Both the position numbers and the translations under genes were made by a program. From Salana multivorans (lineage in GTDB: Bacteria; Actinomycetota; Actinomycetes; Actinomycetales; Beutenbergiaceae), in assembly GCF_003751805.1 (NCBI RefSeq), contig NZ_RKHQ01000001.1, positions 2,294,001 through 2,358,000 of the forward strand: a DNA stretch of 64,000 nucleotides. Reading direction: 5' to 3'. The notes beneath the pieces were generated by a model. That model saw nothing but the letters and a program-made list of their open reading frames with translations. It ran no database searches and was not told where the DNA came from. Positions 45,337-62,109 of this stretch are shown piece after piece (the stretch's first letter is position 1; each line of letters starts with the position of its first letter).

Positions 45337-46431
45337 CTACCCGCGAGCGCGAGCGCGTCGTTCGCTGACCGCCTCCGCGAGCACGTCGAGCGCCTCGACC
45401 GTCGCCTCCCAGCCGAGGCACGCGTCCGTCACGCTCTGGCCGTAGACCAGCCCGGCCGGTCCGGCGGTCACGTCCAGCGGCTGCGCGCCGGCGACGAGGT
45501 GGCTCTCGAGCATGAGCCCGGCGATCGGCTCGTCGGCCGCGACCTGCTCCGCGAGCTCCGCCGCGACCCGCGCCTGACGGACGTGGTCCTTGCCGCTGTT
45601 GCCGTGGCTGGCGTCGACCACCACCCGGTCGACGAGACCGGCGTCGGCGAGCATCCGGGACGCCGCCAGCACGTGCTCGGTGGCGTAGTTGGGCCCGTCG
45701 GCGCCGCCGCGCAGGATGACGGACGTGTCCGGGTTGCCGGTCGTCGTGACGAGGCTGGCGCGTCCGTCGGCGCCGATCCCGAGGAAGCTCTGCGGGGCCG
45801 CCGCGGCGACGGCCGCGTCGAGCGCGACCTGGAGCCCGCCGTCCGTCCCGTTCTTGAACCCGATCGGCATCGACAGGCCGGACGCGAGCTGGCGGTGGAT
45901 CTGGCTCTCCGTCGTGCGCGCGCCGATCGCGCCCCACGCGACGAGGTCGGCCGTGTACTGCGGGCTGATCGGCTCGAGGAACTCGGTCCCGCACGGCACG
46001 CCGAGCGCGGTGACGTCGCGCAGGAACGCCCGGGCGAGCCGCAGCCCGGCCTCGATGTCGTGGCTCCCGTCGAGGTGGGGGTCGTTGATGAGGCCCTTCC
46101 AGCCGACCGTCGTGCGGGGCTTCTCGAAGTACGTCCGCATGACGACGAGGAGGTCCTCGCGGTGCCGGCGCGCCTCGCGCGCGAGGCGCGCCGCGTAGTC
46201 GAGCCCGGCCGCCGGGTCGTGGATGGAGCACGGGCCGACGACGGCGAGCAGCCGGTCGTCGGCCCGCGTCATGACGGCGCGCACCTCGTCCCTGGTGCGC
46301 GCGACGAACGCCGCGCGCTCGTGGTCGACCGGGAGGTCGGCGGCGACGCTGGCCGGGCTCGGAAGAGGGGTGAAGGCGGCGACGTGGACGTCGGAGGTCG
46401 TGTCGGTGCCGGTGGTGCGCGTGCTGGTCAT
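45337..46431 (-). CDS. aroG: 3-deoxy-7-phosphoheptulonate (DAHP) synthase, class I
   Basis: 364 residues of the class I (AroFGH) type. It condenses PEP and erythrose 4-phosphate, the first step of the shikimate pathway. Markers: RLLAVVGPCSIHDP, RTYFEKPRTTVGWKGLINDP, CGTEFLEPISPQY, GFKNGTDG and VVDASHGNSGKDH. The ATG at 46431 has AGGA 7 bases upstream. The frame stays open to an ATG at 46584, but that stretch is the structured attenuator leader and is not expected to be translated in this frame. Confidence 0.96.
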   Translation of the reverse strand: MTSTRTTGTDTTSDVHVAAFTPLPSPASVAADLPVDHERAAFVARTRDEVRAVMTRADDRLLAVVGPCSIHDPAAGLDYAARLAREARRHREDLLVVMRTYFEKPRTTVGWKGLINDPHLDGSHDIEAGLRLARAFLRDVTALGVPCGTEFLEPISPQYTADLVAWGAIGARTTESQIHRQLASGLSMPIGFKNGTDGGLQVALDAAVAAAAPQSFLGIGADGRASLVTTTGNPDTSVILRGGADGPNYATEHVLAASRMLADAGLVDRVVVDASHGNSGKDHVRQARVAAELAEQVAADEPIAGLMLESHLVAGAQPLDVTAGPAGLVYGQSVTDACLGWEATVEALDVLAEAVSERRARARG

Positions 46432-46496
46432 GGTCCCGTCCTGCTGTCGTGCTGGTGGTGGCAGGCGGACCCGACGCAGAGCCCGCCATACGGCGA

Positions 46497-46577
46497 GGGG
46501 CAGAGCATCAGCTCTGCCCCGTCGGCTCTGAAGGTGATGGTGGGCGCTAGATCGGCGCCGGCCCCTCCAGAGCCGAC
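46497..46577 (-). promoter_or_regulatory. candidate transcription attenuator of the DAHP synthase gene
   Basis: In mRNA order, segment 1 GTCGGCTCTG (46577-46568, inside the leader peptide frame) can pair perfectly with segment 2 CAGAGCCGAC (46530-46521). Directly adjacent, segment 3 GGGGCAGAGC (46520-46511) pairs perfectly with segment 4 GCTCTGCCCC (46506-46497) around TGAT: a 10-bp terminator-like hairpin. A third option pairs CCGACG+CAGAGC of segments 2-3 with GCTCTGCGTCGG further downstream. These mutually exclusive structures fit ribosome-controlled attenuation; the terminator lacks a clear U tract. Confidence 0.6.
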
Positions 46578-46606
46578 TCGACATAGACGTACCAACGCGT
46601 GATCAC
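46547..46606 (-). CDS. leader peptide with Trp and Tyr codons upstream of DAHP synthase
   Basis: A 20-codon frame, GTG 46606 to TAG 46547, encoding VITRWYVYVESALEGPAPI (first residue Met when initiated). Trp5, Tyr6 and Tyr8 cluster early, ahead of segment 1 of the attenuator. TAGCCT lies 7 bases upstream of the GTG, so the transcript would begin at this start codon. Stalling at Trp or Tyr codons would decide which hairpin forms. Confidence 0.6.
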   Translation of the reverse strand: MITRWYVYVESALEGPAPI

Positions 46607-46619
46607 GCAGAGCAGGCTA
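46607..46619 (-). promoter_or_regulatory. -10 box of the DAHP synthase leader transcript
   Basis: TAGCCT on the minus strand (46614-46619), 7 bases before the leader-peptide GTG at 46606. No clear -35. Confidence 0.5.
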
Positions 46620-60218: not shown

Positions 60219-60221
60219 GGC

Positions 60222-60310
60222 GGACGGGCCGCGACTGGCGAACGAGGTGGAGCACCACCGGGGAGCTGCCCAGTGCTGGTGACCACCCCGCGTGCCGGAC
60301 GCCTGGGCCC
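60222..60310 (+). promoter_or_regulatory. ZTP/ZMP (pfl) riboswitch
   Basis: The conserved core GGGCCGCGACTGGCGAAC begins at 60226. A GGTGG/CCACC hairpin follows, then CCGGGGAGCTGCCCAGTG, and after a variable loop the second half GCCGGACGCCTGGGC (60294-60308). CTGGGC pairs with the earlier GCCCAG. This matches the pfl motif, which binds ZTP or ZMP (AICAR phosphate). PurH consumes ZMP, so the switch would raise purH expression when ZMP accumulates. Confidence 0.93.
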
Positions 60311-60325
60311 GCGGCCTGCAGACCC

Positions 60326-60375: not shown

Positions 60376-62109
60376 ATGGCCACGCACGCCACCCGTACCG
60401 CCGAGCGCGTCCCGGTCGAGACCCCGGACGTCGTCCCGGTCCGCCGCGCCCTCATCTCCGTCTACGACAAGACGGGCCTCCTCGACCTGGCAGCCGCGCT
60501 CGCCGCCGCCGGCGTCGAGATCGTCTCGACCGGCTCGACGGCCGCCACGATCGCCGACGCCGGCATCGCCGTGACCGCCGTCGAGCAGGTCACGGGCTTC
60601 CCCGAGATGCTCGACGGCCGCGTCAAGACGCTGCACCCGCGCATCCACGCCGGGATCCTCGCCGACCGCCGCTTCGCCTCGCACGTGGAGGCGCTGGCCG
60701 ACCAGGACATCGCGCCGTTCGACCTCGTCGTCGTCAACCTCTACCCGTTCTCGCAGACGGTCGCCTCGGGCGCGAGCGAGGACGACTGCGTCGAGCTCAT
60801 CGACATCGGCGGCCCGAGCATGGTTCGCGCCGCGGCGAAGAACCACGCGAGCGTCGCCGTCGTCGTCGACCCGTCGTCCTACGGCGAGGTCGGGGAGGCG
60901 GTGACGGCCGGCGGGTTCACGCTCGCGCAGCGCCGGCGCCTCGCCGGTCTCGCGTTCCGCCACACCGCGAGCTACGACGTCGCGGTCGCGTCCTGGTTCG
61001 GCGACGTGCTCTCGCCCGACGACCAGATCGAGACGCTGGCCGGCCCCGTGCGCTCGGGCTTCCCGGGCTGGGTCGGCGCCACCTGGGAGCGCGCCGCCGT
61101 GCTGCGCTACGGCGAGAACCCGCACCAGCGCGCCGCGCTCTACGTCTCCCACCACGGCTCGCCGGGCCTCGCGCAGGCCGAGCAGCTCCACGGCAAGGAG
61201 ATGAGCTTCAACAACTACGTCGACGCCGACGCCGCGTGGCGCGCCGCCTGGGACCACCCCGGTCCGGCGGTCGCGATCATCAAGCACGCGAACCCGTGCG
61301 GCATCGCGGCAGCTCCGGCGCGCGGTGCCGCGGGTGACGGGGGCGCCGAGGCGTCCATCGCCGAGGTCTACGCCGCCGCCCACGCGTGCGACCCGGTCTC
61401 GGCCTACGGGGGCGTCATCGCCACCAACCGCGAGGTGACCAGGGCGATGGCCGAGGCGATCGGCGAGGTGTTCACGGAGGTGGTCATCGCGCCGTCGTTC
61501 GCGCAGGACGCGCTCGAGGTGCTGACGCGCAAGAAGAACCTCCGCCTGCTCGTCGCGGCGCCGCCCGTGCGGGACGACGTCGAGATGCGCCCGATCTCGG
61601 GCGGCATGCTGCTGCAGGCCCGCGACGCGATCGACGCGGAGGTCGAGGGCGGCGGCGACGCCGCCGAGGCGTGGCAGCTCGCCGCGGGGGAGCCGGCCGA
61701 CGCCGCGACGCTCGAGGCGCTCCAGTTCGCCTGGAACGCGGTGCGGGCGGTGAAGTCGAACGCGATCCTGCTCGCCGCCCCGGCCGAGGTGGTCGTGGCC
61801 CCCGACGGCGACGTCGTCGACCGGGTCGTGGCGTCCGTCGGCGTCGGGATGGGGCAGGTCAACCGGGTCGACTCGTGCCGGCTGGCCGTCGAGCGCGCGA
61901 ACGCCAACGGGGTGGAGCGGGCGCGCGGCGCCGTCGCGGCCTCGGACGCGTTCTTCCCGTTCGCCGACGGCCTGCAGGTGCTGCTCGACGCGGGGGTGCG
62001 CGCCGTCGTCCAGCCCGGCGGGTCGGTCCGCGACGCCGAGGTGATCGAGGCCGCGCGCGCCGCCGGCGTCACGCTCTACCTCACGGGGACGCGGCACTTC
62101 GCCCACTGA
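60376..62109 (+). CDS. purH: bifunctional AICAR formyltransferase/IMP cyclohydrolase
   Basis: 577 residues. The N-terminal MGS-like cyclohydrolase has [46 protein letters not shown]; the C-terminal formyltransferase has [33 protein letters not shown] and [10 protein letters not shown]. It performs the last two steps to IMP, using ZMP. A small Gly/Ala insert ([15 protein letters not shown]) follows the KHANPCG motif. ATG 60376 with AGGAG upstream. Confidence 0.97.

Follow-up and report, generated by a model that had tools for sequence, protein, structure and literature searches.

On its minus strand the window, that is, the whole 64,000-nucleotide stretch of Salana multivorans DNA analysed here, carries a gene for a class I DAHP synthase. 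Ahead of the gene lie a short reading frame with aromatic codons and a succession of RNA segments that can pair with one another in more than one way:

46614..46619, minus strand: -10 box TAGCCT, 7 nt 5' of the leader GTG (predicted leaderless transcript)
46547..46606, minus strand: leader ORF VITRWYVYVESALEGPAPI followed by a stop, read from the sequence; leaders of the same kind occur at 135 of 196 loci
46583..46585, minus strand: Tyr8 codon TAT, predicted best-placed control codon, 11 nt 5' of GGCUC
46568..46577, minus strand: segment A, GTCGGCTCTG, inside the leader; covaries with B
46560..46565, minus strand: segment A', GGGGCC, which can pair with GGCTCT of A
46521..46530, minus strand: segment B, CAGAGCCGAC, exact complement of A; pairs with A or with D
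46497..46520, minus strand: hairpin C, GGGGCAGAGC TGAT GCTCTGCCCC, perfect 10 bp (46520-46511/46506-46497), terminator-like
46484..46495, minus strand: hairpin H, CGCC/GGCG, formed between C's tail and the 5' side of D
46477..46483, minus strand: segment D, GGCTCTG, which pairs with B (three-way junction) or with E
46464..46472, minus strand: segment E, GGGTCCGCC, which can pair with GGCGGGCTC (46487-46479)
46439..46442, minus strand: AGGA, by inspection the likely Shine-Dalgarno sequence of the DAHP synthase gene
45337..46431, minus strand: class I DAHP synthase, 364 aa (TIGR00034, E 2e-134; PF00793)

The leader frame runs from GTG at 46606 to TAG at 46547 and specifies 19 residues, among them Trp5, Tyr6 and Tyr8, and no Phe. 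The initial annotation described this 20-codon frame and the TAGCCT box 7 nt before its GTG, and both are where it placed them (box at 46619-46614, GTG at 46606). It also supposed that the frame is leaderless, and relatives support this. When start codons are picked blind to the promoter, TANNNT lies 6-9 nt 5' of the start in 118 of 127 distinct upstream sequences; when the promoter is taken into account it does so in 125 of the 127, and in mononucleotide shuffles in 3%. Sequences resembling a Shine-Dalgarno precede the leader start in two of the 127. With a -10 box a few nucleotides from the start codon and no Shine-Dalgarno, the leader transcript is, to judge from the sequence, leaderless.

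Leaders with an aromatic core lie upstream of the class I DAHP synthase gene at 135 of the 196 loci scanned (135 of 143 loose candidates were retained), and so the short frame and its aromatic codons prove to be conserved, which was the check that the initial annotation itself had set. The 196 loci are part of the matches, with the window's own locus and some duplicates counted in. They derive from relatives (matches in 23 of 59 genomes), a collection of genomes (the best 80 of 595 confirmed candidates), the order (100 of 396 genomes, with 40 further stretches picked by hand) and the class (58 of 296 genomes with a match, 30 of these loci being scanned). All but one of the leaders are in actinobacterial records. 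The exception, L043, is a record titled Sporosarcina beigongshangi (Bacillota) that holds an Arthrobacter-type DAHP synthase together with its leader; contamination, misnaming or transfer are all possible. No leader was found at the 18 f4/Bifidobacteriaceae loci scanned (f1, f4, f9, f12 and f38 are family labels assigned by the search tool), nor, the L043 record excepted, at the tree's 25 loci of other phyla. A less stringent inspection of 13 loci without a match disclosed leaders in six (L006, L108, L110, L118, L121 and L195) and none in the other seven.

The leaders fall into types that go with lineage: RWYAYF-ALEGP in Microbacterium and Arthrobacter, RWFTYA in Brachybacterium, RWYWRF-APGGA in Promicromonosporaceae, RYPYF in f38, AYWRF in Mycobacterium and relatives, QYWF in Pseudonocardia, and RFYF in Corynebacterium, where leaders of this kind occur at 14 of 15 loci. 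One position after the window's Tyr8, 53 of 75 distinct leaders have a Phe codon; the window has Val. In L014, L016 and L017-L019 the aromatic run is shifted or altered (MRCAQQYWFSV and VTVQFYWRPAL, for example), and these leaders amount to natural variants of codon position. Control known from one genus is thereby extended to leaders in 13 actinobacterial families, as named by the organism labels of the tree. Natural variation among them in the position and rarity of codons and in RNA pairing makes of them a comparative system in which one can ask which codon of a mixed leader is read.

The leaders favour the rarest synonyms. Over all their Phe and Tyr codons, 101 distinct leaders use TTT for 94 of 108 Phe and TAT for 131 of 139 Tyr. 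The genes downstream, taken from 84 loci, use TTT for 5 of 571 and TAT for 3 of 411, or about 1%; Fisher values for this bias overstate independence because the rows are related. Five ORFs of the window have TTT at 0 of 44 Phe codons and TAT at 0 of 20 Tyr codons. In the window's leader Tyr8 is TAT and Tyr6 is TAC. TTT and TTC are usually read by one tRNA, as are TAT and TAC, and for this reason the theory of selective charging does not directly explain the bias. In that theory codon choice in attenuators is modelled through selective charging of isoacceptors (PMC1183508). Part of the bias may serve to keep the leader region unstructured.

Segment A, within the leader, and segment B, beyond it, are perfectly complementary, as originally claimed (46577-46568 with 46530-46521), and the 10-bp perfect hairpin said to adjoin B is also there (46520-46511 with 46506-46497, loop TGAT). 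These helices covary among relatives. In A:B, tested on 54 distinct pairs, the two flanking base pairs have 21 and 19 double changes, against 5.7 and 7.1 in shuffles; at one core position 14 of the 54 have a C-A mismatch. Helix B:D, at least 5 bp long in 108 of 111 leaders, scores 18.2 for cognate and 14.1 for non-cognate pairs, and encloses hairpins C and H to form a three-way junction. In 65 sequences, selected as R1 matches and aligned by fitting to the structure model (a few rows, such as L188 and L178, look shifted in B:D), 98.8% of the junction's cells are paired and 13 of its 21 pairs have double changes; double-changed cells number 153, against 38.4 in shuffles, and none of 500 shuffles reached as high. 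An unfitted alignment of 13 sequences agrees, with 98.2% paired and 17 double-changed cells against 6.0. In the 65 sequences, double changes occur in 9 of the 10 pairs of hairpin C and, as CG to UA, in 2 of the 4 pairs of hairpin H. For three leaders (L085, L102 and L174) the search for segments chose the wrong B. A:B, which begins inside the leader frame, and B:D are mutually exclusive helices.

A further small hairpin, A:A', would lie within the leader frame and is likely real. Its energy is -9.8 kcal/mol. Recodings that follow gene-like codon usage give -7.1, and the hairpin falls within the best 5% of them in 12 of 61 leaders, a modest effect; recoding with uniform synonymous codons, a control that is too easy, gives -4.8 kcal/mol and 44 of 61. 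In L128 and L139 small indels alter how the peptide ends and leave A and A' intact as RNA, which indicates that this region is conserved as RNA.

The position of the ribosome would decide between these helices. The distance from the last aromatic codon to A is nearly fixed: counted from the first base of that codon, GGCUC begins at 8 nt in 88 of the 111 leaders and at 11 nt in 21, the window's among them. These 111 leaders were folded with the ribosome footprint masked; left out of the 135 were 16 in which no gene start was found, one without a match to A and seven that were identical. With a ribosome at the stop codon, the mean probability of A:B is 0.81 and that of B pairing downstream 0.10. 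With a stall at the last aromatic codon these become 0.04 and 0.73, and with no ribosome 0.68 and 0.23. The modelled switch depends on the offset of the codon: at 8 nt it is full, at 11 nt partial, and from 14 nt upward it is off. On the 111-leader average, then, ribosome position appears to pick the helix clearly, and in the window weakly. There, a stall at Tyr8 with the standard footprint lowers the probability of A:B from 1.00 to 0.59, and that of B:D is 0.00, 0.01, 0.46 or 0.95 for footprints that extend 13, 15, 17 or 18 nt past the first base in the P site. Two types of leader do not switch in the model. In Sinomonas-type leaders B pairs downstream with a probability of 0.99 at stop and 1.00 stalled. 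In the six Pseudonocardia-type leaders, which the downstream measure misses since their D is nearer than 30 nt, B:D stands at 1.00 at stop and 0.96-1.00 stalled, and forms in all states modelled but one.

The initial annotation had Trp and Tyr read jointly, which the models do not demonstrate: by the covering of A only Tyr8 can switch, and the models make Tyr8 (TAT), not Trp5, the best-placed sensor. At equilibrium, a stall at the first aromatic codon leaves A:B formed (0.89), so that sensing at Trp5 or Tyr6 needs a kinetic argument. Before B is transcribed, A:A' has a probability of 0.89 in free RNA, 0.85 with a stall at the first aromatic codon and 0.16 with the ribosome at stop, where A' would sit beneath it. 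Free f1 leaders reach 0.43, and at stop the hairpin persists in the Pseudonocardia type (0.73) and f38 (0.44). In the window, before B is made, the core of A is paired downstream with a probability of 0.82 for stalls at Trp5 or Tyr6 and 0.00 at stop, the partner not always being A' itself. According to the models, a stall at a late codon can act through the covering of A, and one at an early codon perhaps by letting A:A' persist, a kinetic route. Trp5 and Tyr6 could act, we infer, only if an earlier hairpin of the leader holds A.

It is quite likely, from the sequence comparisons, that the class I DAHP synthase gene is under the control of a ribosome-mediated attenuator, itself on a leaderless transcript. 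The leader would very probably be the switch by which the ribosome senses a shortage of aromatic amino acids, and the conserved leader and covarying alternative helices support an attenuator of this type, as first proposed. A 70S ribosome would load on the 5' GTG and, given ample aromatic aminoacyl-tRNA, would reach the stop codon. A would then pair with B, D would be left free for E near the gene's ribosome binding site, and expression would be low. A ribosome stalled at the late aromatic codons would cover A, and one stalled at the early codons would leave A in the hold of A'. With A blocked, B would be free to pair with D around hairpins C and H, D:E would be excluded, and expression would be high. 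That the leader is translated, that events follow this order, and that the A:A' step takes place, we infer.

How the switch acts on the gene is less plain. We would give an even chance to D:E acting on the start of translation. This gene-proximal hairpin, which in the window is GGCGGGCUC with GGGUCCGCC, followed by no T-run, is in some lineages a second competitor of B:D besides A:B. D:E outscores shuffles in 37 of 108 leaders: 5 of 6 of the Microbacterium/window group, 7 of 10 Brachybacterium, 4 of 4 Sinomonas, 15 of 34 Arthrobacter, 3 of 6 Pseudonocardia, 2 of 13 f1, 1 of 6 others, and none of the 19 f9 or 10 f38 leaders. A compensating change, judged by eye, is present in the Sinomonas type. 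The end of E lies 6-8 nt 5' of the Shine-Dalgarno in Brachybacterium, 6-12 nt in the Microbacterium group and 21 nt in the window. Between stop and stall, modelled access to the Shine-Dalgarno goes up in 33 of the 111 leaders and down in 10. The gains are mainly of the Arthrobacter type (20 of 34); none of the 6 Microbacterium/window leaders gains, and one falls. In several lineages, by eye, the ribosome binding site is a further possible partner of E, and such pairing would reverse the sign; as a uniform device this pairing was set aside, being variable among lineages, judged by eye and wrong in sign for the Microbacterium type.

In the enterobacterial trp and phe attenuators, too, the position of the ribosome sets which of several alternative pairings forms; those systems differ from the window in their Shine-Dalgarno-led leaders and in an output that is a U-run terminator. 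The nearest known system is AroR, the Phe-Tyr-Phe leader of Corynebacterium glutamicum aroF (PMC4046766, PMC11802643), credited to Neshat et al. 2014 in PMC11802643, PMC7356990 and PMC4046766. AroR resembles the window in that a short aromatic leader precedes a DAHP synthase gene, and the Corynebacterium relatives of the window's gene have RFYF leaders and, by eye, A:B pairing of the window's kind. AroR is reported there to answer Phe and not Tyr, whereas the window's leader is Trp/Tyr and lacks a Phe control codon. The Corynebacterium loci mostly have a T-run terminator and neither D nor H, where the window has a three-way junction; right after B the window does have a hairpin, its tail poor in T. 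Two others are alike by their published descriptions. The uORFC-13-1 motif before aroF in Acholeplasma (PMC8632094) is also a leader frame before a DAHP synthase gene, with Phe codons and a terminator; it belongs to another phylum and has a ribosome binding site in its consensus. The leaderless cysteine-responsive leaders of mycobacteria (Canestrari et al. 2020, cited in PMC13236596) are leaderless frames that control biosynthetic genes, by what is termed translation attenuation, but with Cys codons and other genes. A 2005 survey reports, for actinobacterial operons of Phe or Tyr, no conserved RNA structure (PMC1262725). The leaders named in passages of a transcriptome paper on C. diphtheriae are those of trp, ilvB and leu, with none for aro (PMC5784534). 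Our search, which reached few subscription papers, found no report of such a leader in Micrococcales.

Control at the level of transcription, by termination, is an appreciable but somewhat less than even prospect, and its particular form in which leader and switch are the same and the output is intrinsic termination at hairpin C, as reported for AroR, strikes us as possible though on the doubtful side. Corynebacterium relatives have A:B and then, at once, a hairpin mostly with a T-run (by eye), and L137 and L138 have hairpin C followed by TTTT. A C-like hairpin with the tail TTCGCC or TTCGTC also occurs directly after tmRNA and two tRNA-Met genes in relatives (L210:2001-2065, L212:1531-1590 and L212:1730-1791, minus strand), so that C looks like an ordinary terminator; hairpin and tail are possibly the usual terminator form of these high-GC genomes, and C may well terminate a constant share of transcripts. 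The review that calls AroR a transcription attenuator states that transcription of the aroF operon rises under Phe limitation (PMC11802643), but another paper terms AroR a translational regulatory leader (PMC7356990). The tail of the window's C, TCGCCGTAT, is poor in T. In transcripts ending just past C, moreover, the mean probability of the hairpin is 0.90-0.92 in all three ribosome states, B:D forms only once RNA polymerase is past C, and a conserved pairing that opens C was looked for and not found. The initial annotation had cast a third pairing, with GCTCTGCGTCGG (46482-46471, minus strand), as an antiterminator. This part of it falls: B:D (D at 46483-46477) encloses C and does not compete with it, and GCTCTGCGTCGG is predicted to pair around the hairpin instead of opening it. 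For the same reason we dropped the notion of C as a terminator opened by B:D, for C lies inside B:D and remains formed.

Nor do other readings of the locus fare better than ribosome-mediated attenuation. The three-way junction might itself be the sensor, an RNA that binds a metabolite or protein, with the leader frame secondary; it is conserved, it covaries, and it matches no Rfam family. We consider this improbable, as leader codons, the distance to A and the use of rare codons are all conserved as well, tyrS leaders (below) have Tyr at the sensor position, and Corynebacterium leaders mostly lack D and H (by eye). It is more improbable still that the peptide arrests the ribosome by a motif at its conserved end, ALEGPA or APGGA. 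Those residues do recur across families, but A covaries with B, and we discarded peptide arrest on account of the indel leaders L128 and L139, which change the residues and keep the RNA. DNA of this kind abounds in short frames and GC-rich hairpins, and yet chance can hardly be credited with a leader at 135 of 196 loci, a -10 spacing kept in 118 of 127 upstreams and junction covariation of 153 against 38.4; conservation and covariation refute it.

The window's genome encodes a class II DAHP synthase elsewhere, and the class I enzyme is therefore a second isozyme; class II enzymes are present in 38 of the 39 genomes of the relatives set, the window's included. The window's protein, placed in a quick tree of 141 DAHP synthases, clusters with Microbacterium (SH-aLRT 89), apart from the other members of its own family; the gene was thus probably acquired along with its leader.

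At E <=1 the window's genome has a single match to a covariance model of the junction. Across 396 genomes of the order the model has 64 matches with E <=8.8e-5, and 62 of them lie 37-193 nt upstream of the class I gene; weaker matches, followed in two cases, often lie elsewhere. Of the two remaining strong matches one lies after tmRNA and the other before a second, divergent tyrS (NCBIfam TIGR00234). The latter, in G160 (f12, which groups with Brachybacterium; L211:1995-2061, minus strand), has a -10 box and a leader beginning MLTRFDYPYGSEES. Three genomes of the window's own family (L229, L230 and L231) have a related second tyrS with similar hairpins and the leader VLTRRVYPNGSG or VLMRRVYPNSSG, also leaderless, in which a TAT codon lies 9 nt before the GGCUC-like position, in agreement with the predicted position of the sensor. 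Might all of these form one family of leaderless actinomycete attenuators, which sense aromatics through the rarest synonym, adopt a three-way junction as the ON state, travel with their gene, change specificity by single codons (the window having lost Phe and kept Tyr), and have been recruited to a second tyrS? We rate this comprehensive view slightly below an even chance.

As far as Rfam, NCBIfam and Pfam tell, the element goes unannotated. Five leader peptides searched against NCBIfam and four against Pfam gave no match, peptides this short hardly reaching the thresholds, and at Rfam gathering scores no family, T-box included, matches the leader element. The sole Rfam match in the window is elsewhere: a ZMP/ZTP riboswitch (RF01750) at 60221-60315, just before an ORF that starts at 60376 and that we take, from the way it reads, to be purH.
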